Shown piece after piece: positions 4,555 through 19,028 of a stretch of DNA of 19,028 nt; position 1 is the first letter of the stretch; the number at the start of each line of letters is the position of its first letter. The notes beneath the pieces are model-generated. The model was given only the letters and a program-made list of their open reading frames with translations. It made no database searches and was not told the DNA's origin. Origin of the DNA: a bacterium (GTDB lineage: Bacteria; JAMCPX01); assembly GCA_021789095.1 (NCBI GenBank), contig JAJYJX010000022.1, forward strand, positions 1 through 19,028, in the 5' to 3' direction. The translations under genes were made by a program, and so were the position numbers.

Positions 4555-4577
4555 ATAGACATATGGCAAAGCCATAC

Positions 4578-4584
4578 AGGGAGG
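4578..4584 (+). promoter_or_regulatory. Shine-Dalgarno that decides the antitoxin start
   Basis: AGGGAGG lies 5 bases before the ATG at 4590. The in-frame ATG at 4563 has no Shine-Dalgarno and would sit 2 bases after the predicted transcription start. The ATG at 4590 is therefore the better start. Confidence 0.75.
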
Positions 4585-4589
4585 CTGAT

Positions 4590-5039
4590 ATGGGAACCAT
4601 AATAAGCGAAGAGGAAAAAAACGAAGAGTTAAGTTATATTCTCGGAATAAAAAAAGAGGAAAAAATAAATAGTCTGTTGATAGATCAGCTTATACGCAAA
4701 GGGTTTTCTACAAGTGTCGGTGATCGCATAAAAAGCAGGCTTAATATTACCGATGCAGAACTTATAAAAGTAGCAGGCGTGAGTGGTAGAACTTTCCAGC
4801 GAAAGCGATCAGAAAACAAAAAATTTTCTTCCCTGGTAAGTGACCGTATTTTCCGAATAATACATATATGGATCTTTGCAACACAGGTGTTTGAAGACAA
4901 TAAGCGGGCAAGCGATTGGATGCATAAGCCGCAAATCGGGCTTGGCGGACGGGTACCGATGGATCTTCTACAAACGGAAGCCGGTGAAAAAGCGGTTGAG
5001 GATCTTCTCGGCAGAATAGAATACAGCGTTATTTCGTGA
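4590..5039 (+). CDS. Xre/MbcA/ParS-family antitoxin
   Basis: Antitoxin of a type II RES toxin-antitoxin pair: it binds and neutralises the downstream RES toxin and usually represses its own operon. The protein has 149 residues from the ATG at 4590. The middle part (about 45-75, TDAELIKVAGVSGRTFQRKR) is the Xre-like helix-turn-helix. The C-terminus carries the DUF2384/MbcA-ParS toxin-binding domain (about 95-149) with the family signature GRVPMDLLQTEAGEKAVEDL followed by LGRIEYSV. Its TGA overlaps the GTG of the toxin gene (GTGA), giving coupled translation in antitoxin-first order. It follows the tad operon on the same strand but has its own promoter, and is probably an independent accessory module. 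Confidence 0.92.
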   Translation: MGTIISEEEKNEELSYILGIKKEEKINSLLIDQLIRKGFSTSVGDRIKSRLNITDAELIKVAGVSGRTFQRKRSENKKFSSLVSDRIFRIIHIWIFATQVFEDNKRASDWMHKPQIGLGGRVPMDLLQTEAGEKAVEDLLGRIEYSVIS

Positions 5040-5497
5040 CAATTGCATGGCGTTTTGTAAAAGCTAAGCACGCACTGAAAGCTTTTGACGGCGAAGGTGC
5101 CAGACGTTACGGCGGTCGTTGGAATCGGGGGGGCATAGCTGTAGTATATATAAGTCAAAGCCTTGCACTTGCTTCACTTGAAGAGTTTGTGCATTTAGGA
5201 GATGAGGGTAAAAAATTAAAATTCGTATATTTTAAAGTAGAAATACCGGATAACATAAGGATTGATCAATTAACGACTTTACCGGGTGACTGGCGCAACG
5301 AACCGCCGTCTAATTCAACGCAGGATATGGGTACTGAGTGGGTAAAAAGAAACACCTCTGCTGTATTAAAAATTCCATCCGCTGTCGTTCCTATTGAGTT
5401 TAACTATATGTTGAATATAGCCCATCCAGATTTTAAAAAAATAAAAATATACGATCCTGTTGCATTCAGATTTGATCCCAGAATGTGGAAAGCATAA
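5036..5497 (+). CDS. RES-domain toxin (NAD+-degrading, ParT/MbcT type)
   Basis: RES-family toxin of 153 residues, the usual length. Characterised relatives deplete NAD+ (MbcT of M. tuberculosis is an NAD+ phosphorylase) or modify a host enzyme (ParT ADP-ribosylates Prs); which applies here cannot be told. The family core is intact: GGRWN with R28, VVYISQSLALASLEEFVH with Y38 and E49, and IPSAVVP with S115, followed by the typical FNYMLNIAHPDF and a short basic tail. These are the expected Arg/Glu/Ser active-site positions, so the toxin looks functional. It starts with GTG at 5036, overlapping the antitoxin stop. No terminator-like hairpin is obvious downstream before the convergent PilZ gene. 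Confidence 0.93.
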   Translation: MTIAWRFVKAKHALKAFDGEGARRYGGRWNRGGIAVVYISQSLALASLEEFVHLGDEGKKLKFVYFKVEIPDNIRIDQLTTLPGDWRNEPPSNSTQDMGTEWVKRNTSAVLKIPSAVVPIEFNYMLNIAHPDFKKIKIYDPVAFRFDPRMWKA

Positions 5498-5568: not shown

Positions 5569-6300
5569 TTATCCCTTACTGGATTTGCCGAGAGACTTGA
5601 AATATTCTTCTAAAACCTTTTGCCCGTCATCTTCGAATTCCAAAAACTGTACACCCATCCCGGGCACTCTGTCATAATCCAGCAGCCTGGCCTGCTCACT
5701 GCCAAAAATATGCACTATCTCGCCAATGACCTTTACCTCTTTGGGAAAATTGGGCAGGGACAACACAAGCTCTACCTTTGATTCCAAGGGGAGCAGTTTA
5801 TCCGTAGATACGAATATCCCTCCTTTGGAAATATCTTTTGTATACTCCCATACAAACTGTTCTTTCGACTTAAAGGTAACCTTGATGGATGTGCTGTATC
5901 TGGGATTCTTTCTGCCCGGAGTCACATTTGTTCTGGAAATAATACTGTTTAGTGCAGAGGAAATATCGAAGTCTCCGGTAAATTTCATGTCTGATGTCAG
6001 AGGGAATTTACTTTTAAATACTTCTCTTTCTTTTTCTCCGATCATCATGAGGTTATAGAATTTCGACTCTGACTTTTCTGCCCATGATTGGATTCCATCA
6101 ACGTAACCGGGAAGGAAGGAATAAAAATCAAAAGAGAGGATTATCCCCAGGGTGTCACTTGAAGACCAGCTATAAATGTTTATGGCCTTGAGTACGGAAG
6201 GATAATGCTGGGTTTTTGTGTCTACAAGGAGCTTTTCAAGAAGTGCGGCCTTCTGGGATATATAGGGAATAATTAAAGCAATCTCAAAAAATCTGTCCAT
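5569..6300 (-). CDS. PilZ-domain protein with unassigned N-terminal domain (paralogue 1)
   Basis: Probable c-di-GMP receptor, 243 residues from the ATG at 6300. The start is chosen because AGGA stands 7 bases upstream and because the paralogue at 7672-8412 begins at the same residue (MDR/K-FEIALI). An in-frame GTG at 6327 lacks a Shine-Dalgarno. Residues 1-125 form a mixed alpha/beta region I do not recognise, with the conserved stretch NIYSWSSSDTLGIILSFDF (41-59). Residues 130-235 are the PilZ domain: RKNPR (130-134, the RxxxR c-di-GMP motif), DISKGG (156-161, D/NxSxxG) and a C-terminal PGMGVQFLEF (213-222), like Myxococcus-type PilZ proteins. There are no membrane segments, so it is cytoplasmic. 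The binding motifs are intact; the output partner is unknown. It is convergent with the RES toxin gene. Confidence 0.88.
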   Translation of the reverse strand: MDRFFEIALIIPYISQKAALLEKLLVDTKTQHYPSVLKAINIYSWSSSDTLGIILSFDFYSFLPGYVDGIQSWAEKSESKFYNLMMIGEKEREVFKSKFPLTSDMKFTGDFDISSALNSIISRTNVTPGRKNPRYSTSIKVTFKSKEQFVWEYTKDISKGGIFVSTDKLLPLESKVELVLSLPNFPKEVKVIGEIVHIFGSEQARLLDYDRVPGMGVQFLEFEDDGQKVLEEYFKSLGKSSKG

Positions 6301-6346
6301 ACATAATTCCTGGGAGTTTGATATCACAAAAACAGGAATAAAGAAA
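6301..6346 (-). promoter_or_regulatory. Leader conserved with the second PilZ paralogue
   Basis: Bases 6321-6346 match 8433-8458 at 22 of 26 positions, and both blocks begin 21 bases upstream of their ATG. The nearer bases contain each gene's Shine-Dalgarno. Either the duplication included the promoter or a regulatory site has been kept. A TTTGTGATA block is common to both. I do not recognise a specific factor. Confidence 0.5.
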
Positions 6347-7671: not shown

Positions 7672-8412
7672 CTATTGAAAAGTGCCGGAATCCGTTTTGC
7701 TGAGTGAAAGGAAATATGCGTCTAAAATCTTCTGTCCGTTATCTTCGAATTCCAAAAACTGTATGCCCATTCCCGGCGCTTTGTCGTAGCCCATGAGCTT
7801 TGCCTGGTCTGCGTTGATAATATGCACTACCTCGCCTATGACCTTGACCTCTTCAGGGGAATTTGGAAGCGACAAGAGCAGTTCCACCCTTGATTTCAAA
7901 GGAAACGCTTTGCCTGTAGATACGAATATCCCTCCCTTGGATATATTGCTTGTATACTCGTGGATAAACTGCTCCCTTGACTTAAAAGCGACCTTGATGG
8001 ACGCACTGTACCGTACATGTTTTCTCCCGAGGGTTCCATTTATTCTGATAAGAATGCTTTTGAGTGCAAAAGGAATATCGAAATCCCCGATAAATTTAAG
8101 GTCCGATGTCAGGATAAATTTATTTTTGAATTCTTTTCGCTCGGTTTCCCCGAAAGCCATGAGTTCGAAAAGTCTTGCATCGGTCTTGGGTATCAGCGCT
8201 TTGATCCTGTTAAAGTAGCGGGGGAGAAAGGAGTGAAAATCAAAAGCGAGAATAATGCCAAGGGAGTCGCTCGAAGACCAGCTGTAAAGGTTTATAGACT
8301 TGAGGACATCACGGGAGTGTTCTGTTTTCATGTCCTGCAGGAATTCTTCCACAAGTGCAACCTTATTCGATATATGAGGAACTATTAAAGCGATCTCAAA
8401 AGATTTATCCAT
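7672..8412 (-). CDS. PilZ-domain protein with unassigned N-terminal domain (paralogue 2)
   Basis: Second probable c-di-GMP receptor, 246 residues from the ATG at 8412 (AAGGA 6-7 bases upstream). A further in-frame ATG at 8493 would add 27 residues that the paralogue lacks and that overlap the shared leader. It aligns without gaps to the first paralogue over about 235 residues: MDKSFEIALI at the start, NLYSWSSSDSLGIILAFDF at 41-59, RKHVR at 130-134, NISKGG at 156-161 and PGMGIQFLEF at 213-222. The c-di-GMP residues R130, R134, N156, S158 and G161 are kept. N- and C-terminal parts are about equally conserved between the copies, so the unassigned N-terminal domain is under constraint. The C-terminal tails differ. 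The transcript ends in the palindromic element at 7574-7669. Confidence 0.88.
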   Translation of the reverse strand: MDKSFEIALIVPHISNKVALVEEFLQDMKTEHSRDVLKSINLYSWSSSDSLGIILAFDFHSFLPRYFNRIKALIPKTDARLFELMAFGETERKEFKNKFILTSDLKFIGDFDIPFALKSILIRINGTLGRKHVRYSASIKVAFKSREQFIHEYTSNISKGGIFVSTGKAFPLKSRVELLLSLPNSPEEVKVIGEVVHIINADQAKLMGYDKAPGMGIQFLEFEDNGQKILDAYFLSLSKTDSGTFQ

Positions 8413-8458
8413 TGTTAATCCTTTGGGGTTTATTATCACAAATACGGGAATAAATAAA
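8413..8458 (-). promoter_or_regulatory. Leader of PilZ paralogue 2, with possible extended -10
   Basis: Conserved with 6301-6346 (22 of 26 bases in the distal block 8433-8458). On the minus strand TGT is followed by GATAAT (8437-8432), a fair extended -10, but no good -35 is seen. The first paralogue has GATATC at the same position. The promoter call is weak; the conservation itself is clear. Confidence 0.4.
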
Positions 8459-8568
8459 GGTTGCCGTAATGCCGATTGCCAATCAAGGAACAATTTGATA
8501 GGCTGGGGCCCAGGAGTATGACCGTATGGCCATTATTGCGATATCGGGCTGATAAAGTTCAGGGATTT

Positions 8569-9033
8569 TTATTCTGACTGTTCCTTCACCGGCAGCACAC
8601 AGTCCTCTTTCAGTGTTGAGAAAACAACCATGGTGTATGTCCTGACAACCCCTGTTATGCTCCTGAGCTCCTTGATCAATCTCTCAAGCGTGGTTGTGTT
8701 GCGCGTCTTTACCTTGAGCAGCAGGGTGTAGTCGCCTGTTACATGGTGACATTCCAGGATATCCTCGTTGATATTTGTGATAGCCTTTTCAAAACTGTCT
8801 ATGTATTGGGGATGCTCGACATAAACCCCGATGAATGCAGTTACATCTATACCAAGTTTCTTCTCGTCAATTACAGTTATGTACCTTTTTATTATCCCTT
8901 CTCTTTCGAGCTTTTTCACCCGGTCAATAACGGAAGGAGGCTGCAGTTTCACCTTTTTTGCAATATCCCTGTACGTCGTTCTGCTGTCCTTCTGGAGTAT
9001 ACTTAAGATCTTTATATCAATCCTGTCTAACAT
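8569..9033 (-). CDS. Lrp/AsnC-family transcriptional regulator
   Basis: Amino-acid-responsive DNA-binding regulator of 154 residues, the normal size for the family. The N-terminal winged helix-turn-helix spans about 1-60 (LDRIDIKILSILQKDSRTTYRD, then PSVIDRVKKLEREGII). The C-terminal RAM ligand-binding/oligomerisation domain spans about 66-142, with the typical CHHVTGDYTLLLKV. AAGGA stands 7 bases before the ATG. It is transcribed away from the glutamate synthase cluster, and the 344-bp shared intergenic region holds a consensus promoter and an inverted repeat. It is therefore a good candidate to regulate that cluster and itself; this is inferred from position. The effector could be glutamate, glutamine or another amino acid. 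Confidence 0.93.
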   Translation of the reverse strand: MLDRIDIKILSILQKDSRTTYRDIAKKVKLQPPSVIDRVKKLEREGIIKRYITVIDEKKLGIDVTAFIGVYVEHPQYIDSFEKAITNINEDILECHHVTGDYTLLLKVKTRNTTTLERLIKELRSITGVVRTYTMVVFSTLKEDCVLPVKEQSE

Positions 9034-9377: not shown

Positions 9378-10892
9378 ATGCTTTACAAGAACCCTTACAA
9401 CAACTACTTTGATTATGTAGTCCAGAGGGACATGGACAAGTGCATCAGGTGCAAAGACTGCGTTACACAGTGCTCGTACGATGCAAACTTTTACGATGAA
9501 GAGAGGGATCTCATTTACAGCCTTGATTCCAACTGTGTTGGATGCATGAGGTGCTCAACGTTCTGTCCGACCGACTGTATAAGGATTGTCAGGAACCCGG
9601 ATACGTTCAGAATCAATGCAAACTGGAAAGACAATAATGTAAAGGATCTTTATAAACAGGCGGGCACAGGCGGGATTATAATCACAGGTATGGGCAATGA
9701 CAAACCATACAAAAATTACTGGGAGCATATGGTCATTGATGCATGCCAGGTCACCAATCCTTCCATAGACCCGCTGAGAGAGCCTATGGAGCTCAGGACA
9801 TTCCTCGGAAGGAAGCCGGACAGGCTTGAGGTCAATAAGGACGGGGACATCACAACAAAGCTTGCCCCGCAGCTTGTCCTGGAAACACCAATTATGTTCT
9901 CTGCAATGTCTTACGGTTCGATCAATTATAACGTGTGCGAGTCCGTGGCAAGGGCGGCAAAAGAGCTCGGCATATACTGGAACACAGGTGAAGGCGGATT
10001 GCCCGACACGCTGTATGAATACGGGAAGCATACGATAGTGCAGTGTGCGTCAGGCAGGTTCGGCGTGAGTCCGGAGTATCTTAATGCCGGAGCAGCGATA
10101 GAGATAAAGATCGGCCAGGGTGCGAAGCCGGGCATAGGTGGCCATCTGCCCGGAGAAAAGGTCTTGGAGGGCATTTCCAGAACAAGGATGATACCTGTTG
10201 GAACAGACGCGATATCTCCGGCTCCACATCATGACATCTATTCCATCGAGGATCTGAGGCAGCTTATATACGCGTTAAAAGAAGCCACCCGTTATGAAAA
10301 ACCCGTTTCTGTCAAGATCGCCGCTGTCCATAATGTTGCAGCAATAGCAAGCGGCATTGCAAGGGCCGGAGCGGACATTATAGCCGTGGACGGTTTCCGC
10401 GGCGGAACAGGTGCAGCCCCGAAGTCCATAAGGGACAATGTCGGCATACCTACAGAGGTGGCCATAGCTTCAGTTGATCAAAGGTTGAGAGAGGAAGGCA
10501 TAAGGCACCAGGTATCACTTGTTGCTGCAGGGGGGTTCAGGAACAGCAGTGATATCGTAAAAGCAATCGCACTCGGCGCAGATGCCGTATATATTGCCAC
10601 CTCGGCGCTTATGGCGGTTGGATGCACACTGTGCCAGCAGTGCCACAGGGGAAGGTGCGCATGGGGTATAACGACAAACGACCCGGAGCTTTCAAAACGG
10701 GTCAACCCGGAGATTGGTGCAGAGAGACTGGTAAACCTGATAAGGGCATGGTCAAACGAGATCAAAGAGATGCTGGGATTGATGGGCATTAACTCCATAG
10801 AAAGCCTGAAGGGCAACCGCGACAGGCTCAGGGGCGTTGGGCTCTCGGAGATAGAACTCCAGACACTGGACATAAAACAGGCAGGCATGTGA
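9378..10892 (+). CDS. gltB2: Glutamate synthase FMN/Fe-S subunit, archaeal-type GltB2 with ferredoxin domain
   Basis: Synthase subunit of a split glutamate synthase: ammonia from glutamine adds to 2-oxoglutarate, and reduction at FMN gives glutamate. It has 504 residues. The N-terminus is a two-cluster ferredoxin domain, with CIRCKDCVTQC (C22, C25, C28, C32) and CVGCMRCSTFC (C53, C56, C59, C63). The FMN-binding (beta/alpha)8 synthase domain follows (about 115-480) with SAMSYGSIN, GEGGLPDTLYEYGKH, GRFGVSPEYL, the GQGAKPGIGGHLPG loop, and DGFRGGTGAAPKS at the FMN site. CTLCQQCHRGRC (C416-x5-C422-x4-C427) is the [3Fe-4S] motif of glutamate synthases. This is the archaeal/anaerobe type, lacking the fused glutaminase and GXGXG domains, which are separate genes downstream. 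It is the first gene of the cluster. Confidence 0.94.
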   Translation: MLYKNPYNNYFDYVVQRDMDKCIRCKDCVTQCSYDANFYDEERDLIYSLDSNCVGCMRCSTFCPTDCIRIVRNPDTFRINANWKDNNVKDLYKQAGTGGIIITGMGNDKPYKNYWEHMVIDACQVTNPSIDPLREPMELRTFLGRKPDRLEVNKDGDITTKLAPQLVLETPIMFSAMSYGSINYNVCESVARAAKELGIYWNTGEGGLPDTLYEYGKHTIVQCASGRFGVSPEYLNAGAAIEIKIGQGAKPGIGGHLPGEKVLEGISRTRMIPVGTDAISPAPHHDIYSIEDLRQLIYALKEATRYEKPVSVKIAAVHNVAAIASGIARAGADIIAVDGFRGGTGAAPKSIRDNVGIPTEVAIASVDQRLREEGIRHQVSLVAAGGFRNSSDIVKAIALGADAVYIATSALMAVGCTLCQQCHRGRCAWGITTNDPELSKRVNPEIGAERLVNLIRAWSNEIKEMLGLMGINSIESLKGNRDRLRGVGLSEIELQTLDIKQAGM

Positions 10893-10930
10893 GTTGGAAG
10901 ATGAACATAAACCAAAGAAATACATTAGAG

Positions 10931-10952
10931 AATAAGGAAGTTTGTGTAATGA
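10931..10952 (+). repeat. Third copy of the repeat containing a ribosome binding site
   Basis: ATAAGGAAGTTTG (10931-10943) is followed by a GTAATGAG context, as at the right arm of the segment 6411-6594 read on the minus strand. It carries AAGGAA and an ATG (10949) that opens a 35-codon ORF running through the adjacent palindrome to 11056. It lies 38 bases after the gltB2 stop. Confidence 0.5.
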
Positions 10953-10971
10953 GCAGGAACTGCGTTCTTTT

Positions 10972-11041
10972 GTCATTCCTGCGAAAGCAGGAATCCAGAG
11001 AAAATAAAAAAGACTGGATTCCGCATCAAGTGCGGAATGAC
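10972..11041. repeat. 70-bp nested palindromic repeat (GTCATTCC/GGAATGAC type)
   Basis: Outer arms GTCATTCC (10972-10979) and GGAATGAC (11034-11041) enclose two hairpins, ATTCCTGC-GAAA-GCAGGAAT (10975-10994) and ATTCCGCA-TCAAG-TGCGGAAT (11018-11038). A further pairing, GGAATCCAG (10990-10998) with CTGGATTCC (11014-11022), gives an alternative long stem. This is a widespread dispersed proteobacterial repeat that I recognise from its sequence. It sits between gltB2 and the ferredoxin gene in one transcription unit, so it could affect mRNA stability or the ratio of the gene products. Confidence 0.8.
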
Positions 11042-11063
11042 GGAGAAGATCAATGAGGATGGA

Positions 11064-11510
11064 ATGAAGATTGTATATCCAAGAGAACAGTGGTGTATTG
11101 CATGTAACCTGTGCGAGGTTGCGTGCATGACAGAACATTCGAGGACAAAGGACCCGTTAAGGGCGTACCTTATAGAAAAACCAAGGCCCGTATCCCGCAC
11201 AAAGGTGGAATATCTGCCGCCGGTTGCCGTCTCTGTAATGTGCAGGCATTGTGCAGAGGCAGAATGCGTTGAGGCCTGCAAGAACGGTACGCTTACAAGG
11301 GATGAAAAAACAGGCAAGATAGAACTTGATCGGGACAAATGCCTCGGCTGCTGGATGTGCATCATGGCATGTCCGTACGGCGTGATCACCCAGGTCAGGA
11401 AAGAGGAAAAGGCAGTTGCAAACAAGTGCGACCTTTGCCCGGACAGGGAGATCCCGGCGTGTGTTGCAGTATGTCCTAATCGTGCGCTTGTATTTGAGGA
11501 CAGGGGTTAA
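11064..11510 (+). CDS. Four-cluster ferredoxin-like electron transfer subunit
   Basis: Polyferredoxin of 148 residues (HycB/CooF/DmsB-like) with four cysteine groups: CIACNLCEVAC, CRHCAEAECVEAC, CLGCWMCIMACP and CDLC...CVAVCP. This is enough for four [4Fe-4S] clusters. It probably passes electrons between the FAD oxidoreductase downstream and GltB2. The ATG at 11064 is preferred because GAGG lies 5 bases before it (11055-11058). The in-frame ATG at 11037 falls inside the palindromic repeat and has no Shine-Dalgarno. The stop is 3 bases before the next gene. It has no Tat or Sec signal, so it is cytoplasmic. Confidence 0.88.
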   Translation: MKIVYPREQWCIACNLCEVACMTEHSRTKDPLRAYLIEKPRPVSRTKVEYLPPVAVSVMCRHCAEAECVEACKNGTLTRDEKTGKIELDRDKCLGCWMCIMACPYGVITQVRKEEKAVANKCDLCPDREIPACVAVCPNRALVFEDRG

Positions 11511-11513
11511 ACA

Positions 11514-12782
11514 ATGAAATACGTTATTATAGGAAATTCGTACGCAGCTGTTTTTGCTGTAGAGTCTCTGCGCAAAACAGACAAAAGCGGTGAGATTACA
11601 ATTATCTCGAAAGAACCTTATCATGTATACGCACGTGCGGCCATCCATGAATACATGGATGGAACAATCGGGGATGCGCAGATGTATTACAGGGACAAGG
11701 ACTTCTATGAAAAACACAGGGTGACAACAATATTCGGCAGGACAGTAACAGGGGTTGAACCTGAGAAGAACAGGGTTGTTCTGGACAACAAGCAGAAGAT
11801 CGACTTTGACAAACTGATGATAAGCTCGGGCGGGGTTCCGATAGTCCCTCCCATTGAGGACTTTAAAGGAGTCGGTACATTCACCTTCACAACGTGGGAC
11901 GATGCAAAGGTGCTGAAGGATTGGGTCAAAAAGCAAAAGATGCCGCAGGCAGTAGTCATAGGCGGAGGTCTTATCGGTTTGCAGTGTGCTGAAGGGTTAA
12001 AGCACATGGGCGTTGATGTTACAGTTGTTGAACTTGCAGATTATGTGCTTGTGAAGGCGCTCGACAGCATTACTGCGCAGCGCGTTCAGCAGTGGCTTAC
12101 GCATAACGGACTAAAGGTGATAACCGGCAATACGGTCGTATCCATAAACAGGGCAAAAGGCAGGATAACAGGAGTGAAACTCAAGAACGGCGAGAAAGTC
12201 AAATGCAACACCGTGGTACTGAGCATTGGTGTGCGTCCCAACACAAGCCTGGTTGAAGGCTCGGGCATAAAGGTAAACAGGGGGATAATGGTTGACAACA
12301 GCATGCAGACAAATGTCGAAGGCATCTTTTCAGGGGGTGATGTTGCAGAAGCCGAGGATTTTTTGAGAAAGAAAGGGGAAGTGATGCCTATAATACCTGT
12401 TGCGACCATGCAGGGTAAGATTGCTGGCTTCAACATGGCAGGAGAAAAAAGGACATATCCCGGCGGGCTTTTACAAAATGCGTTCCAGTTCTTTGGCAAG
12501 AGTGTCGTATCAATAGGTAATGTTATTTCCATAGACCACAACGACGGGTTTGAGGAGATCATAAAGGACGAAGGGGATGTTTATAAGAAAGCCGTTTTAC
12601 AGGACGGGAAACTGGTCGGTGTCCTGTCAATGAATTATATAGCAAGGATCGGCATATACAACAGCATTATCAGGTCCAGAATGGACGTGACCGGGATCAA
12701 GGACAAGCTGTTGTCGGACAAATTCGGATTTCTTGATCTTCCGAAGGAATTCAGGGACGAAATGCTGACAAAACCAGGGTAA
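11514..12782 (+). CDS. FAD-dependent NAD(P)H oxidoreductase of the glutamate synthase cluster
   Basis: Pyridine-nucleotide-disulfide-oxidoreductase-like flavoprotein of 422 residues, related to NADH-rubredoxin reductase and the FAD part of NirB. The N-terminal FAD site reads MKYVIIGNSYAAVFAVESLR, where the usual GxGxxG appears as GNSYAA. The NAD(P)-binding site VVIGGGLIGLQCAEGL is at about 145-160, and the second FAD motif VEGIFSGGDVAEAE at about 263-276. I see no redox-active CxxxxC pair. It probably replaces GltD as the electron entry point: NAD(P)H to FAD, polyferredoxin, then GltB2. It is tightly linked to the ferredoxin gene (3-base gap). The reverse direction, or use of reduced ferredoxin as donor, cannot be excluded. 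Confidence 0.88.
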   Translation: MKYVIIGNSYAAVFAVESLRKTDKSGEITIISKEPYHVYARAAIHEYMDGTIGDAQMYYRDKDFYEKHRVTTIFGRTVTGVEPEKNRVVLDNKQKIDFDKLMISSGGVPIVPPIEDFKGVGTFTFTTWDDAKVLKDWVKKQKMPQAVVIGGGLIGLQCAEGLKHMGVDVTVVELADYVLVKALDSITAQRVQQWLTHNGLKVITGNTVVSINRAKGRITGVKLKNGEKVKCNTVVLSIGVRPNTSLVEGSGIKVNRGIMVDNSMQTNVEGIFSGGDVAEAEDFLRKKGEVMPIIPVATMQGKIAGFNMAGEKRTYPGGLLQNAFQFFGKSVVSIGNVISIDHNDGFEEIIKDEGDVYKKAVLQDGKLVGVLSMNYIARIGIYNSIIRSRMDVTGIKDKLLSDKFGFLDLPKEFRDEMLTKPG

Positions 12783-12821
12783 GAGTACAATGGACAGGAT
12801 AATAATAACACAGGAAATGAT

Positions 12822-13937
12822 ATGGGAATAAAACCTTCTACACCTTACGGGAAAGATTTTGGCGGATGCGGACTGGTCGGCATAATAGACCGCAGCGGCG
12901 GCAGTCTCTCCGGCTCGATGGTTGTTTCCTCACTTTGTTCAATGAAAGAAAGGGGCAACGGTCTCGGCAGCGGATATGCTGTTTACGGCGCGTATCCAGA
13001 TTTTAAGGACAGCTTTGGGCTGCATATAATGTACAACGACATAAGTGCGCGCGAGCCTGTAGAGGAGTTTTTAAAGACGAGACTGAGGATCAAACACTCT
13101 GAGCCTGTGCCTGTGAAGAAACTCCATTCCATGAACACCCCCCCGGAGTTCTGGCGGTACTTTGCCGACCCTCCGGAGGACCTGGACGTGCAGGACGAAG
13201 ATGCCAACGACGATCTTATCGTTGGTGTTGTTATGGAGATCAACGAAAGGATAGATAATGCTTACGTTGTTTCGAGCGGCAAGAACCTTGGTGTGTTCAA
13301 GGGTGTAGGACATCCCGATGAGATCGCCGAGTTCTTCAGGATGCAGGATTATAAAGGATATCTTTTGCTTGGACATACCAGGTTCCCGACAAACACCCCG
13401 GGATGGTGGGGTGGGGCGCACCCGTTTACAATACTTGACTGGTCAATAGTTCATAACGGCGAGATCTCTTCTTACGGTACAAACAAAAGGTACGTAGAGA
13501 TGTTCGGATATAAATGCACCCTGCTCACAGACACGGAGGTAGTAGCCTACCTGCTGGATCTGCTTGTAAGGAAGAAGGGGCTTACGCTCTCAGCCGCGGC
13601 ATCTGTGCTGGCGCCGCCGTTCTGGAAGAACATTCAGGACATGGAACCGCCGAAGAAAGACTACTACACGGCGCTGAGAATGTGCTATGGCAATGCGTCT
13701 TTAAACGGCCCGTTTGCAATCCTCATGGGTTTTGACAACGGTATCCTCGGTCTCAATGACAGGATAAAGCTCAGGCCCCTAATTGTAGGCAGGAAAGGCG
13801 ACATAGTCGCAATAGCCAGCGAGGAATCGGCAATAAGGGAGGTCATAAAAGAGCCCGAAGACGTATGGGCGCCGAAAGCAGGCGAACCTTTTATAGTGAA
13901 ACTTAAGGAAGATGTAACCCAGGTCAGATCCACCTAA
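12822..13937 (+). CDS. gltB1: Glutamate synthase glutaminase subunit GltB1 (class II amidotransferase)
   Basis: Stand-alone glutaminase that releases ammonia from glutamine for GltB2. It has 371 residues of class II (Ntn-type) glutamine amidotransferase fold. The catalytic Cys is probably C16 in GGCGLVGIID, so a 15-residue propeptide would have to be removed to expose it, as in full-length GltB. Family motifs are intact: MKERGNGLGSGYAVYG (about 43-58), LLGHTRFPTNTPGWWGGAHPF (about 183-203), HNGEISSYGTN (about 210-220) and LLTDTEVVAYLLDLL (about 233-247). AGGAAA lies 5 bases before the ATG. The stop falls within a small palindrome (ATCCACCTAAGGCGGAT, 13928-13944). Confidence 0.93.
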   Translation: MGIKPSTPYGKDFGGCGLVGIIDRSGGSLSGSMVVSSLCSMKERGNGLGSGYAVYGAYPDFKDSFGLHIMYNDISAREPVEEFLKTRLRIKHSEPVPVKKLHSMNTPPEFWRYFADPPEDLDVQDEDANDDLIVGVVMEINERIDNAYVVSSGKNLGVFKGVGHPDEIAEFFRMQDYKGYLLLGHTRFPTNTPGWWGGAHPFTILDWSIVHNGEISSYGTNKRYVEMFGYKCTLLTDTEVVAYLLDLLVRKKGLTLSAAASVLAPPFWKNIQDMEPPKKDYYTALRMCYGNASLNGPFAILMGFDNGILGLNDRIKLRPLIVGRKGDIVAIASEESAIREVIKEPEDVWAPKAGEPFIVKLKEDVTQVRST

Positions 13938-13976
13938 GGCGGATTTGCTGGGTAAAACAGTAATATGGAAGGCACA

Positions 13977-14714
13977 ATGAAGATTGACTCACAGGGCATG
14001 CATTACAAAGTCCTTAATCAAAAGATCAACGAGGCCGTTATACAGGGTATAACGGATATAGAGCTTTTTAATGTTAACGGCCAGAGATACATAGGCGACG
14101 GGCTTAGAAAAGAGGTAAGGATCAATGTACATGGTGTGCCCGGGAACGACCTCGGGAGCTTTATGAACGGCCCTGTTATCACGGTCAACAATAATGCCCA
14201 GGATGCCGTTGGAAACACGATGAACGGCGGAAAGATCATAATAAAGGGGATGGCCGGTGATGTGTGCGGATATGGAATGCGCGGCGGGAAGTTGTTTATC
14301 CTTAAGGACGCGGGCTACAGGGTGGGCATACACATGAAGGGATACAAGACACTGAACCCGATCATAGTTATAGGGGGAAATGCTGGCGATTTTCTTGCAG
14401 AGTATATGGCGGGCGGCGTGATTATACTGCTCAGGATGTTCGGCCGCAATGATCATAACAATATAATCGGTGATTATCTTGGGACGGGCATGCACGGCGG
14501 GACTGTGTATATAAGGGACGGCATAGATAAGAAAAAGCTCGGCAAAGGGGTCGGGGTATCAGAGCCATCAGCCGAAGACAATATGCTTATAGAAGATATC
14601 ATAAAGGAATACGCCGCAGACATGGGACTCGATGCAGGGAAAATATTGAACGAAAAGTTCGAAAAGCTCACGGCCCTGAGCACCAGGCCGTACAGCAAGC
14701 TGTATACGTATTAA
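13977..14714 (+). CDS. gltB3: Glutamate synthase GXGXG-domain subunit GltB3
   Basis: Stand-alone right-handed beta-helix (GXGXG) domain corresponding to the C-terminus of bacterial GltB, where it has a structural role linking the active sites. It has 245 residues from the ATG at 13977, which has GGAAGG 4 bases upstream; the ATG at 13965 (4 residues longer) has no good Shine-Dalgarno. The repeats are clear: NGPVITVNNNAQDAVGNTMN, GGKIIIKGMAGDVCGYGMRG, GGKLFILKDAGYRVGIHMKG and GGNAGDFLAEYMAGG, with GMHGGTVYIRDG near 178. A helical tail of about 45 residues follows. It is last in the cluster. Its TAA overlaps the stop of the convergent TrkA gene, with no room for a separate terminator. Confidence 0.92.
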   Translation: MKIDSQGMHYKVLNQKINEAVIQGITDIELFNVNGQRYIGDGLRKEVRINVHGVPGNDLGSFMNGPVITVNNNAQDAVGNTMNGGKIIIKGMAGDVCGYGMRGGKLFILKDAGYRVGIHMKGYKTLNPIIVIGGNAGDFLAEYMAGGVIILLRMFGRNDHNNIIGDYLGTGMHGGTVYIRDGIDKKKLGKGVGVSEPSAEDNMLIEDIIKEYAADMGLDAGKILNEKFEKLTALSTRPYSKLYTY

Positions 14715-15376
14715 CCCGCGGATTTAAACATCTTCTGTATCTTGTCTATATGTTCTTTTGTGACGATTGCAATGACCTTGTCATCCTGCTGGAAGATTGT
14801 GTCACCTTTCGGAATGATCGTTTCTTCGCCCCGGTAAATGGAAACGATAATAATACCCTCCGGTAATCCGAGATCCTTTATCTTTTTATCGACTACGCTT
14901 GCCCCTTTCTGGACCTCCGCCTGTACAAGCTCAACGTTACCGCCTTTTAAAGGAAACAGCGGGACAACGACATCGCCCGCATGGACCTGTTCTTCGATAA
15001 GATAGTTCAGTATTCTCGTCGCATTGATCGTTGCGTCAACGCCGATGCTTTGAAACAATGGCTCGTTTGCCGGGTCGGAAACCCTTGTTATAGTCCTTGG
15101 CGCCATAAACATCATCTTTGTAAGCTGGCACACAACAAGGTTTGTTGAATCGTCTCCTGTCAGCGCCACTATTACATCCGCCCGGTTTGCGCCTGCTGCC
15201 TTTAGAACGGACGCATTCGCGCCATTCCCGAACATGACTACGTCTCCCAGTACTTCTGACAGGGAGGAGACCTTTAATTTATCCTGATCTATCAGGGTTA
15301 CTTCGTGCCCGGCTGATAACAGTGTTCTTGTAAGACTGATTCCTGCTTTGCTCGCCCCAACGATTATGATATACAT
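14711..15376 (-). CDS. RCK-N/RCK-C regulatory subunit (TrkA-type)
   Basis: Cytoplasmic regulator of ion or solute transport, 221 residues. Residues 1-125 are an RCK-N (TrkA-N) Rossmann fold with MYIIIVGASKAG (G7, A8, S9, G12; the second Gly of GxGxxG is Ser) and the NAD/ADP-ribose-binding acidic residue D30 in VTLIDQD. Residues about 135-219 form an RCK-C domain (VQAEVQKGASVVDKKIKDLG...). AGGAGG stands 4 bases before the ATG and overlaps the stop region of the gene upstream. It has one RCK unit, as in Ktr/Ktn and many archaeal Trk proteins; E. coli TrkA has two. No TrkH/KtrB-type channel is present in the window. The only transporter in the operon is the APC permease. Confidence 0.9.
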   Translation of the reverse strand: MYIIIVGASKAGISLTRTLLSAGHEVTLIDQDKLKVSSLSEVLGDVVMFGNGANASVLKAAGANRADVIVALTGDDSTNLVVCQLTKMMFMAPRTITRVSDPANEPLFQSIGVDATINATRILNYLIEEQVHAGDVVVPLFPLKGGNVELVQAEVQKGASVVDKKIKDLGLPEGIIIVSIYRGEETIIPKGDTIFQQDDKVIAIVTKEHIDKIQKMFKSAG

Positions 15377-15384
15377 GTGTCCTC

Positions 15385-15786
15385 CTATGATATTCCGGGC
15401 ATTTTAAGAAGTGCATCGATGGTAAGGCTCGTGGGGCACAGTATTTCTATACCAAGCTCTGTGTATACTGTCGCAAGGCTCACATCGAATAGCCTTGTTA
15501 TAATCCTTATGGTTTTATCCAGGAGCTTTATCTTCTGGGATATGAGGATGTTTGTGTAATCATTGCCTGTTGCAACGATTACGATATCAGCGGGTTTTTT
15601 TAATGCGTCCCTTATTATATTGTCATCTGCACCGTTTCCAGCCAGAAACTCAATGCCCTGCCTGTCTTCTATGTACATGAATTTGCTTTCGTTCTGTTCA
15701 ACCATAAGTACACTGTCGCCCCTCTTGGTAAAAAGGCTTGCAAGCCGCGATCCGAGCCTGCCTGAGCCTATTATGACTATTCTCAT
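15385..15786 (-). CDS. Stand-alone RCK-N (TrkA-N) protein
   Basis: A 133-residue protein consisting only of an RCK-N Rossmann domain: MRIVIIGSGRLGSRL with an intact GxGxxG (G7, G9, G12) and E30 at the end of the second strand, then FLAGNGADD and ADIVIVATGNDYTN. The RCK-C domain is missing and the ORF ends cleanly (LLKMPGIS). Because the next gene starts 8 bases later with its own full RCK-N/RCK-C, this is not a frameshifted half of that gene. It could pair with the neighbouring RCK protein as a hetero-dimer with different ligand specificity. The start is directly abutted to the UspA stop, with GAGGAG lying inside the UspA gene. Confidence 0.88.
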   Translation of the reverse strand: MRIVIIGSGRLGSRLASLFTKRGDSVLMVEQNESKFMYIEDRQGIEFLAGNGADDNIIRDALKKPADIVIVATGNDYTNILISQKIKLLDKTIRIITRLFDVSLATVYTELGIEILCPTSLTIDALLKMPGIS

Positions 15787-16347
15787 TTATGTCTCCTCAC
15801 CGGGTAATTTATCTATTATGACCTCGCATGGAGATTTTCTAAGGACGATATCGGATGTCCTTCCGAGTATGTTTTCCTTAAGCCCTACGTGCTGCCGTAT
15901 GCCCATGATAATAACATCAGCGTTCTGTTCCCTGGCGACCTTTATGATCTCCTCGCCTGCTGATCGTGACCTTACTACAAAAGAAACGCTTTTCATCTTG
16001 TGCAATGCAGCAAGTTCTTCTGCATGCGAAATGGCCTCTTTTGCCTCTTTGTCCTCTTCCTCCATCTCCGCATTCAGCGGAAGGGTCCTCGGTACTTCGA
16101 TAACATACAAAAATATAAGTGTTGCGTCCTGCTCTGTCCCCAGCCTGCATGCGACCTCAACGCCTCTTTCCGAATAAGCCATGCCCTGAGTTGGTATGAG
16201 GATGCTTTTCAAAGCCTCGACCTCCCTGTGTGCCCTTGCAACAACCTGCGGGATAATTGGCGGCACATGAAGCATCCACCATAACAGAGAGAGCATGGTT
16301 AATAGAAACAGGAACGCTATACCAACACCTAAAGATGACTGGATCAT
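15787..16347 (-). CDS. Membrane-anchored universal stress protein (UspA family)
   Basis: UspA domain with an N-terminal membrane anchor, 186 residues from the ATG at 16347. This start has AAGGGG 6 bases upstream and an ATGA overlap with the previous stop; a longer in-frame start at 16434 would lie inside the preceding gene. Residues about 5-27 form one transmembrane helix (LGVGIAFLFLLTMLSLLWWM). The UspA fold follows at about 46-180 (ALKSILIPTQG..., FLYVIEVPR, DVIIMGIRQ). The usual ATP motif G-2x-G-9x-G-S/T is degenerate: G149, Q152 in place of Gly, G162, then R163. It may not bind ATP in the standard way. It probably docks beside the permease as a cytoplasmic sensor. Confidence 0.88.
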   Translation of the reverse strand: MIQSSLGVGIAFLFLLTMLSLLWWMLHVPPIIPQVVARAHREVEALKSILIPTQGMAYSERGVEVACRLGTEQDATLIFLYVIEVPRTLPLNAEMEEEDKEAKEAISHAEELAALHKMKSVSFVVRSRSAGEEIIKVAREQNADVIIMGIRQHVGLKENILGRTSDIVLRKSPCEVIIDKLPGEET

Positions 16348-16535
16348 TGCCTGCCCCTTAAATACTTCAGCACATAGAACGTCCTGTAAATACCATAGCC
16401 CATGAAACTTATACCAACGATAACCGGCAGCCATGCATGGAGATTTATAGAGCGTATAATTATGATTATGCCGATAATGATAAACAGCAGGCTGTTTACA
16501 GATATAATTTTATTTTTCAGGCTTAGTTTGTCCAT
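16344..16535 (-). CDS. Small two-helix membrane protein in a transporter operon
   Basis: A 63-residue protein with two predicted transmembrane helices (about 12-30 and 33-56), a short polar N-terminus (MDKLSLKNK) and a basic end (YLRGRQ). I do not recognise the family. It is likely to be real because its ATG overlaps the end of the permease gene by 26 bases with AAAGAG just upstream, and its TGA forms an ATGA overlap with the UspA gene; all three are thus translationally coupled. Position and size suggest an accessory subunit of the permease, analogous to small subunits such as KdpF. That role is inference. Confidence 0.7.
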   Translation of the reverse strand: MDKLSLKNKIISVNSLLFIIIGIIIIIRSINLHAWLPVIVGISFMGYGIYRTFYVLKYLRGRQ

Positions 16536-18102
16536 TTCTCTTTAACTTTTCATCCCGCTCTTTTAAGGCAAGCCTGTACTCCTCTGCAAGGTCGAACTCC
16601 TCTGCAGATGTCAGGACGTCCATCTGGTGCGCCTCCCAGTTTCTTTTGATGCTTTTGGTCACAGGCATATTGTTTTTCTTCCTGAAATAAATGAAATAGA
16701 GCAGTCCTAATAAGACCCATATAGGGCCTGCTATCCTGCCTATTTTATGGGTAAGGATAACCTCGAACAAGATGGTGCCAACGCCGAGGAACCCGAATAT
16801 GGCAAGCACAGGGAAATCAATGGTCCTGTCCTTGTAACGCATTTTTATATTTAAAGGCATCTTGTACGGTCTTGGTGTGTATGGATCTGAGAAGCGCAGC
16901 CTTATAAGCGCAATGAATACAATCAGGTATCCGAGTGTTGCACCGAAAGCATACATGTTGCCGAGCGTGTCCATTGCTTGTGGTGTCATGAATGAGAGAA
17001 GCATTTCTATTATTCCGATTCCTGAGAATACCACTATCGTTCTTACAGGGGTCTTATACTTTGGATTAACCTTGTTAAACCACCGTGTTATAAGGTCGAA
17101 TTCACTCATTGAGTACGTAAGCCTTGAAGCGCTCATAACGCCTGAATTGGCCGAGATGAGCAGTATGGTTGCTCCAAGCAGCGCCGTGACAGGGCCTGCG
17201 ATTAATCCTATGTATGGTATGGCATGGGCAAGTGTTGCAATAGGGTCGCCTATGTGTTCTGCAAAAGTCTGCCATGGAAGCACGCCAAGACTCAAGCTTG
17301 AGAATGCTGTTGCAAATATGAATACGGTGAAGATTAGGGTCACGGAAGTCCTTGGTATAATAGTGGCCGGTCTTTTTGTTTCCTGGGCTGCCTGCGATAT
17401 GGATTCAAGCCCTACGAATGATATGATGCCGAGCGATGAACCGTACATAAAGTTATGGAGCGTTGGGAATGACATCTGCCACTGCTGAACAAGAAATTCC
17501 GGTTTCCATGCAAACAGAAAGCCGAATACAATGACACTTGATTCTATGAAGATATCAAATGCACCTATGACCTCGTTGAAAAGTGATGATTCCTTTATGC
17601 CTATGATATTGAGCCATATAAGAAAAAATATAAAAATGAGCGATTCTGTAAGCCACAGGTAATTTATTTTCAGCGATCCAAGCGTAAGAATAAAATGGGT
17701 CGGGTCTATGCCGAAGTAGGGCAGAAAGAAATTTACGTATCCTGCGGATGCAACGGAAAACAATGCGATGTCAATGGTATAATCAAGGAGAAGTGCTGTG
17801 CCGGTTACAAATCCCCAGAAATCACCCAGTCCGCGGAGTGCAAAGTATTGCCCGCCGCCGGCAATAGGATATGCTGAAGCAAGCTCTGTGTATGCGAATC
17901 CAATCATAATGTAAACAATGCCTGCTGCTGCGAATGCAAGGCTTGCTGCTCCCTGTGCAGCTGCAATGACAAGACCTAATGCTGCGTATATATCAGCCCC
18001 GACATCTGCATAACCCCACATGTATGAACCCCATACGCTTATATCCCTTCTGAGCTCGTGTGTAGGCTGAGAGGGTGTAACTATATCGGTATTATCATTC
18101 AT
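16510..18102 (-). CDS. APC-superfamily permease (amino acid or K+ transporter)
   Basis: Polytopic inner-membrane secondary transporter of 530 residues with about 12 predicted helices. It has APC-fold features: the unwound first helix GYADVGADIYAALGLV (30-45), AYPIAGGGQYFALRGLG (77-93), GTALLLDYTIDIAL (101-114), and GLESISQAAQETKRPATIIP in the middle. A charged cytoplasmic tail of about 60 residues (470-530) could contact regulatory subunits. The LLLDY segment and the AYPxAGGG pattern also occur in the KimA-type K+ transporters of this superfamily, but I cannot assign a substrate. Its neighbours encode UspA and RCK proteins, which elsewhere gate K+ uptake; the nearby glutamate synthase would equally fit amino acids. 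The Shine-Dalgarno is weak. The gene starts 32 bases after the upstream stop. Confidence 0.88.
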   Translation of the reverse strand: MNDNTDIVTPSQPTHELRRDISVWGSYMWGYADVGADIYAALGLVIAAAQGAASLAFAAAGIVYIMIGFAYTELASAYPIAGGGQYFALRGLGDFWGFVTGTALLLDYTIDIALFSVASAGYVNFFLPYFGIDPTHFILTLGSLKINYLWLTESLIFIFFLIWLNIIGIKESSLFNEVIGAFDIFIESSVIVFGFLFAWKPEFLVQQWQMSFPTLHNFMYGSSLGIISFVGLESISQAAQETKRPATIIPRTSVTLIFTVFIFATAFSSLSLGVLPWQTFAEHIGDPIATLAHAIPYIGLIAGPVTALLGATILLISANSGVMSASRLTYSMSEFDLITRWFNKVNPKYKTPVRTIVVFSGIGIIEMLLSFMTPQAMDTLGNMYAFGATLGYLIVFIALIRLRFSDPYTPRPYKMPLNIKMRYKDRTIDFPVLAIFGFLGVGTILFEVILTHKIGRIAGPIWVLLGLLYFIYFRKKNNMPVTKSIKRNWEAHQMDVLTSAEEFDLAEEYRLALKERDEKLKRNGQTKPEK

Positions 18103-18134: not shown

Positions 18135-19028
18135 TTAATCCGTGCTCTGTGTAAATCTGGCAAGTATGGCCTGGTTTGTCTCTATCCTTGCATTACTTAC
18201 GAGGTCCCGTATCCAGTAACTGTAGGAGGATTGAGATATATCGTACCTTAACTGCATATCAGCCTGCATAATATTTTCAGGCTGTTCAGCAGGCTTTAAG
18301 GAATCGATCCATACAATAAACAGGTTGTTGTCAACCGTGAATACCTTGTTTAATACGGCGCCTTTTTTATTCATCGTTAACAGCTGTTCGGCAATACCGG
18401 GTGCATTGCCGATACCGGGAATGTTTTCGCCATGCAGTGTGAACGGACCGCTCGTCCCCTCCTTTACGCCATCCATAACAGGAAGTTTTGTCTTGCCTTT
18501 TAACAAATCATTAAGGTAGGACCTGGCAACAGTCATTGCATAATCCTGGTTTGATTTTTCCCCCTGGGGAAGTTTCAGATTGTCAGGGCTTATTTTATAG
18601 TAATTGAGGGAGATCTTCGTGTTGTCGATGGTATTCAGCATTCCGATCTCATTATTGCTCAGAAAAATACCGTCGAAGAAGAGCTTGCGCAGTTTCAAAG
18701 TCAGTAAATCATTGTGCACGTCCTCCTGGAAGCTGTCGGGAGTAATGTTGTTTTCACGCAGCACAGCGTAGTATGCCCTGGGATCAAACTGGTGCTCTTT
18801 ATTGAGAAAAGCAGGGGTATGGCTTATCTGGTCGCGCAGTTCCTGATCTGAAACAATAAAGCCGATGTCGTGTGCCTGCTGGGCAGCTATTTCGTTTGAA
18901 ATGAGATTGTTCAGTACCTGACGTGGTATATTGAGCTTCTCTATCAGATCCGGAGGTATCTGGCCGTTAAATTCTTTGCTGTATGCATTGATCGTGTTTT
19001 TGTATGCCCTGCTGAAATTATCCATAAA
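18135..19028 (-). CDS. SurA/PpiD-like periplasmic chaperone, 5' end outside window, no parvulin domain seen
   Basis: Partial gene: the frame stays open to the window edge (one Phe codon before the ATG at 19025). The first visible residues, MDNFSRAYKNTINAYSKEFNG, align with the stretch that follows VNGxxIs in PpiD-type proteins, so the signal or anchor and the true start lie beyond 19028. Residues about 1-125 are a SurA-N chaperone domain (LNIPRQVLNNLISNEIAAQQAHDIGFIVSDQELRDQI). The C-terminal part has features of the PpiD C-terminal segment (GPFTLHGENIPGIGNAPGIAEQLLTM..., YWIRDLVSNARIETN). I find no GGDLG-type parvulin core, and the total would be roughly half the length of PpiD. It probably acts as a chaperone in the periplasm. 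It lies 32 bases upstream of the permease and may be co-transcribed with it. Confidence 0.75.
   Translation of the reverse strand, partial: FMDNFSRAYKNTINAYSKEFNGQIPPDLIEKLNIPRQVLNNLISNEIAAQQAHDIGFIVSDQELRDQISHTPAFLNKEHQFDPRAYYAVLRENNITPDSFQEDVHNDLLTLKLRKLFFDGIFLSNNEIGMLNTIDNTKISLNYYKISPDNLKLPQGEKSNQDYAMTVARSYLNDLLKGKTKLPVMDGVKEGTSGPFTLHGENIPGIGNAPGIAEQLLTMNKKGAVLNKVFTVDNNLFIVWIDSLKPAEQPENIMQADMQLRYDISQSSYSYWIRDLVSNARIETNQAILARFTQSTD

Follow-up and report, generated by a model that had tools for sequence, protein, structure and literature searches.

The window analysed here is a 19,028-nucleotide stretch of bacterial DNA (contig JAJYJX010000022.1 of assembly GCA_021789095.1), one of the 203 contigs that make up a 92%-complete draft genome of 2.15 Mb. 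On its minus strand lies an operon of five genes, a candidate K+ uptake system, encoding a permease of the APC fold, a short peptide with two transmembrane (TM) helices, a membrane-anchored Usp protein and two proteins with RCK domains (Table 1). The five open reading frames (ORFs) listed by an earlier note on this DNA are all present. Pfam assigns four of them, the permease to AA_permease_2 (7.8e-38), the Usp protein to Usp (1e-24), the RCK-N protein to TrkA_N (1.9e-19) and the RCK-N/C protein to TrkA_N (3.8e-26) and TrkA_C (1.9e-18); the two-TM peptide matches DUF308 below threshold only. The note had described the genes as packed with overlaps. From the permease onwards we find a 26-bp overlap, a 4-bp ATGA overlap and an abutting junction as described, but the last spacing, of 8 bp, is a gap and not an overlap. 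The packing is not due to chance, because the gene order is kept in sister genomes and in other phyla. A longer Usp ORF (15787-16434) exists, but its first 28 codons are unconserved and contain a stop codon in one sister genome; we therefore set the Usp start at the internal ATG at 16347. Divergence at the three codon positions relative to one sister genome indicates coding constraint in all five genes (0.12/0.06/0.49 for the permease), the peptide being weakest (0.27/0.21/0.52).

Table 1. Genes of the operon and its upstream neighbour in the window
Feature	Position	Strand	Basis and remarks
APC-fold permease, candidate K+ importer, 530 aa	16510..18102	-	Pfam AA_permease_2; conserved cytoplasmic C-terminal tail
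Two-TM hairpin peptide, 63 aa, DUF308-like	16344..16535	-	26-bp overlap with permease; sub-threshold Pfam match
Membrane-anchored Usp subunit, 186 aa	15787..16347	-	Pfam Usp; start set from conservation
RCK-N subunit, 133 aa, TM1088A-like	15385..15786	-	Pfam TrkA_N; PDB match TM1088A
RCK-N/RCK-C subunit, 221 aa, TM1088B/TrkA-like	14711..15376	-	Pfam TrkA_N and TrkA_C; PDB matches TrkA, TM1088B
SurA-like peptidyl-prolyl isomerase	18135..19025	-	Pfam SurA_N_3; 32-bp gap upstream of permease

All nine available genomes of the small phylum to which the window belongs show the set, whole or in part, the fetched loci keeping the same order and the Usp gene being present in every genome. We used the permease alignment to search named genomes of bacteria and archaea and found 49 loci (numbered L), whose neighbours were checked with purpose-built profiles. 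The full order permease-peptide-Usp-RCK-N-RCK-N/C occurs in Nitrospirota (L039), Methylomirabilota (L045), WOR-3 (L047), Zixibacteria (L041, L051) and Bacillota (L038, L040, L042, L043 and, from Moorella thermoacetica, L076), and a Chloroflexota locus (L115) has this order as far as the available sequence extends. The RCK pair is a single TrkA_N-TrkA_N-TrkA_C gene in Acidobacteriota (L062, L077) and Myxococcota (L049), and in four Chloroflexota loci (L070-L072, L113) RCK-N lies upstream of the permease. The two-TM peptide adjoins the permease in most intact loci. The five genes are one conserved cassette whose order is shared by nine or more bacterial phyla, so that a combination which the earlier note had seen in one genome is not confined to it. 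In a second permease clade, found mostly in Bacillota and Chloroflexota, the peptide and Usp genes are retained, but the neighbourhood contains no RCK pair. The permease frame of Moorella thermoacetica DSM 21394 (L076:6013-7205) is disrupted, leaving fragments of 79 and 257 aa, while a riboswitch, the peptide, Usp and both RCK genes are intact; this genome has TrkH and Kdp. A scan of viral contigs with the Usp protein gave no match. The five-gene set is undescribed in the open-access literature searched, which leaves out most subscription journals; papers on the ydaO riboswitch may list riboswitch-permease pairs.

The two RCK proteins resemble a known gating ring. The best PDB match of RCK-N is TM1088A (4.7e-16), and RCK-N/C matches TrkA (7.3e-42) and TM1088B (1.3e-30). 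In Thermotoga maritima, TM1088A and TM1088B form a mixed octameric ring for the TrkH protein TM1089 and are encoded by overlapping genes (PMC4380455, PDB 3l4b). Because of these matches we read the pair as a two-subunit TrkA of known kind beside a different membrane partner. RCK gating, as the earlier note had supposed, is the likely mode of control. The pair and the tight linkage of its genes are shared with Thermotoga Trk, whereas the pore of that system is TrkH; here an APC-fold permease occupies the neighbouring place, and Usp and the two-TM peptide are added. Trk and Ktr systems in general share with the cassette the RCK subunits carrying TrkA_N and TrkA_C, but the TrkH/KtrB pore was not found here. 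KtrAB and KtrCD are RCK-controlled K+ uptake systems, several of which have a c-di-AMP (cyclic di-AMP) riboswitch or bind c-di-AMP. Their membrane subunit, KtrB, is a TrkH-family protein, of which none was found here. The fused RCK protein was modelled with AlphaFold2 (AF2; pLDDT 73, pTM 0.61, linker unresolved), but the model is too weak to indicate the packing of the two RCK units.

The Usp protein starts with a membrane helix that contains a conserved WWMLHVPP stretch, followed by the Usp domain. The Usp ATP motif G-2x-G-9x-G(S/T) was found in none of the 22 cassette Usp proteins examined. The c-di-AMP motif of KdpD-type Usp domains, (A/G/C)-x-S-x-S-x2-N-(Y/F) (PMC8214093), does not occur in the window Usp, whose loop at that place reads TQGMAYSERG. 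Usp had been counted among three nucleotide-sensing subunits, a view that these absences do not support; because both motifs are lacking we take it for an adaptor, which may bind c-di-AMP by other modes.

In the permease, a group of acidic and tyrosine residues would form the substrate site, namely D33/D37 and Y39 in TM1, D107/D111 in TM3, E233 in TM6 and Y384 in TM10. Over 46 homologues, D111, E233 and Y384 are invariant and D107 (45), D37 (44) and Y39 (43) nearly so; D33 is present in all 46, in part because the search pattern called for it. Among homologues found by profile, without the D33 pattern, nearly all have D33, and all that cover the positions have D37, D111, E233 and Y384 except one distant member. 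In a profile alignment with three true KimA proteins (L104-L106, the first confirmed as KimA against 6s3k), D107 corresponds to KimA D117, D111 to T121, Y384 to Y377 and D37 to D36, with D33 also close to D36; the TM1 register may be off by a few residues, and the tyrosine match is uncertain too. E233 aligns with the proton-coupling glutamate of KimA in a common G-[LV]-E motif. Thus KimA residues D117, E233 and Y377 are identical in the permease and T121 is replaced by Asp. KimA itself cannot do without D36, Y43 and E233, and its affinity depends strongly on Y377 (PMC6994465).

KimA, a c-di-AMP-linked K+ importer, and Kup are H+/K+ symporters of the KUP family (PDB 6s3k, 8b70, 8b71) that have the APC/LeuT fold in common with the permease. 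Compared with these, the permease has about 16% identity, no Pfam K_trans (PF02705) match and no KimA-type large cytoplasmic domain, in place of which the operon has separate RCK and Usp subunits; it ends about 50 residues past the last TM helix, and the alignment with KimA stops at TM10. All groups share a conserved cytoplasmic tail of about 40 residues that follows the last TM helix (about residues 480-522), an extra feature relative to the cationic amino acid carriers GkApcT and CATs (PDB 5oqt, 6f34). These carriers have G-(S/T)-G in TM1 where alignment places G-A-D in the permease. Their motif serves the carboxylate of the substrate. Moreover, GkApcT lacks the TM10 tyrosine, and at the position of its TM5 lysine most members of the RCK-pair clade have Asp and most of the RCK-less clade Ala. 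The permease is not an orthologue of a characterised amino acid permease (the earlier note had named such orthology as fatal to its proposal): all NCBIfam equivalogs score far below cut-off, and identity to the nearest solved structures is about 20%. From the sequence, fold (AF2 model, pLDDT 86.7) and site comparisons we place it in the APC superfamily, not in KUP by Pfam, with a KUP-like site.

Two side observations concern relatives of the permease. The genomes of the RCK-less cassettes L066, L060 and L063 also have the true KimA genes L104, L105 and L106, the last of which has Asn at the position of the essential TM1 Asp of KimA. A distant Chloroflexota permease (L130:1417-2946), with GNVGSSIYY in TM1, DY in TM3 and TGIETVSN in TM6, looks, by these motifs, intermediate between the cassette permease family and KimA.

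Other K+ importers are scarce in the genomes that carry the cassette. The earlier note had seen none of the usual importers in the window, and a family-by-family search extends this to the whole genome, where TrkH/KtrB, KdpA and Kup were not found. TrkH/KtrB (PF02386) and full-length Kup are absent from all nine genomes of the phylum, KdpA is present in five, and one genome that is 99% complete (G002) has no TrkH/KtrB, KdpA or Kup; the other APC genes in the phylum are not KimA-like. Among 42 permease carriers, TrkH occurs in five, full-length Kup in three and KdpA in 24. In a sample of 150 Chloroflexota genomes (centre left out), 18 of which have the permease and 52 TrkH, none of the 18 carriers has TrkH compared to 52 of the 132 others (Fisher p 2.6e-4, shared ancestry uncorrected). 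Acidobacteriota, with three carriers in 297 genomes, offer too few for a comparison in a second phylum.

The cassette is also associated with a c-di-AMP riboswitch (RF00379). It precedes the permease gene, in the same orientation, in L039, L041, L042, L043, L045, L062, L076 and L077, that is, in eight of the 11 RCK-pair loci outside the window's phylum whose upstream DNA was searched, and these span Nitrospirota, Zixibacteria, Bacillota, Methylomirabilota and Acidobacteriota. Scores are 71-95 bits (cut-off 38) and the element lies 55-275 nt before the permease ORF. It was not found upstream in L047, L049 and L051, in any RCK-less locus scanned, or elsewhere in the loci scanned. A simple scan of L039 and L076 showed no intrinsic terminator after the riboswitch. 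A c-di-AMP synthase is present in 39 of the 42 permease carriers and in all nine genomes of the phylum. In Bacillus thuringiensis a riboswitch of this type turns kdp off at high c-di-AMP (PMC6488665).

The riboswitch, the scarcity of other importers, the KimA-like site and the TM1088A/B-like RCK pair are the four independent lines on which we base a role in K+ uptake, and K+, which the earlier note had considered possible, is the likely substrate. We think it likely that the operon encodes a K+ importer, in which an APC-fold permease stands under a two-subunit TrkA ring and has Usp and the peptide as further subunits. On this reading the main idea of the earlier note is largely upheld. The operon would serve as a housekeeping K+ uptake system, with the permease importing K+, probably together with H+, through the KimA/Kup-like site. 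RCK-N and RCK-N/C would form a mixed ring of the TrkA type, like TM1088A/B under TrkH in Thermotoga, that switches the permease in response to a nucleotide (ATP/ADP or NAD(H)) and possibly also, through RCK-C, to c-di-AMP. Tethering of this ring to the permease may fall to the membrane-tied Usp protein and the two-TM peptide, as structural or adaptor subunits. In relatives with the riboswitch, high c-di-AMP, signalling ample K+, would shut the operon off, by analogy with kdp of B. thuringiensis. The wider proposition is that of a new K+ importer class, spread over at least nine phyla, whose APC-fold secondary transporter, instead of a channel-like TrkH/KtrB subunit, is gated by a TrkA-type RCK ring by way of a membrane Usp adaptor and the peptide; we regard it as evenly balanced.

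Several observations weigh against K+ import by an RCK-gated permease. By sequence, GkApcT and the CATs are the nearest solved proteins (E ~1e-29) and KimA is marginal (0.0057), and the fold comparison is tied (Z 38.6 for KimA, 38.2 for GkApcT); the KimA-likeness claimed beforehand thus holds for the site residues, but not for the overall sequence. The conservation of D33 and of W489/E490 is partly built in, since these residues were present in the search patterns. RF00379 was not found at the window operon or in the sister genomes, the window contig ending at the surA-like gene, and a review counts amino acid transporters among the genes preceded by c-di-AMP riboswitches (PMC7266159). Only 35% of the Chloroflexota genomes sampled have TrkH, and its absence therefore says less than 14 model genomes would suggest; a contrast of five in 42 carriers with 11 in those 14 genomes was set aside as overstated given this baseline. 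Four Bacillota carriers, including Moorella thermoacetica DSM 21394, retain TrkH, and the cassette and TrkH are therefore not strictly exclusive. A K+ channel that combines Ion_trans_2, TrkA_N and TrkA_C domains (L029:1880-2887) is encoded in the window's genome as well and offers a possible second K+ route. Finally, many permeases of the same family occur without RCK or Usp genes nearby, and a few stand alone.

The closeness to GkApcT and CATs and the place of c-di-AMP riboswitches before amino acid transporter genes favour the main rival, in which the substrate of the permease is an amino acid or compatible solute, RCK and Usp tune the carrier to the osmotic state, and the riboswitch provides osmotic control. 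We hold this to be unlikely, as the permease has G-A-D instead of the G-(S/T)-G of the solved carriers and a site crowded with conserved acids, and as the absence of TrkH and Kup from carriers would be left unexplained. The same acidic, cation-friendly site could suit Na+, ammonium or a polyamine, polyamine carriers being known among APC members, but RCK rings and c-di-AMP riboswitches are linked above all to K+ and the missing K+ importers would again lack an explanation; transport of another cation is in our view very improbable. It is also conceivable that the permease imports K+ and that the RCK and Usp proteins regulate something else, such as an RCK-type K+ channel or an antiporter, in keeping with the permease homologues that have no RCK genes nearby and with the many loci that have permease, peptide and Usp yet no RCK pair. 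However, channel L029 and antiporter L030 of the window's genome carry their own RCK domains, the RCK genes are tightly packed with the permease across phyla, and the riboswitch occurs only with RCK-pair cassettes, so we consider such a division of tasks distinctly unlikely.

Other genes of the window were noted in passing. The SurA-like gene adjoins the operon wherever contigs of the phylum extend far enough, and is not part of the cassette outside it; this phylum-specific neighbour probably shares the operon transcript. A split archaeal-type glutamate synthase set (9378-14714; ferredoxin, oxidoreductase, GATase and GXGXG genes) is convergent on the operon, and a link between the two was dropped since the set does not lie alongside the cassette in sister genomes. 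Further genes are an Lrp/AsnC-like regulator (8569-9033), two adjacent genes that by eye resemble an Xre/RES-type toxin-antitoxin pair (4563-5497), and, on the minus strand, two similar PilZ-like proteins (5569-6327 and 7672-8493) that flank a lipase-like gene and have, again by eye, the look of a recent duplication.

K+ uptake is essential, and several lineages, among them the 99%-complete genome of the phylum, have no TrkH/KtrB, Kdp or Kup; for this gap the cassette is the best candidate. If K+ import by an RCK-controlled permease is correct, an RCK ring, known on channels and channel-like transporters, would be joined to an alternating-access permease, and another importer would come under c-di-AMP. 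Since family models label the permease an amino acid transporter, K+ uptake would then go unnoticed in genome-based models of these organisms, among which are many uncultured ones.

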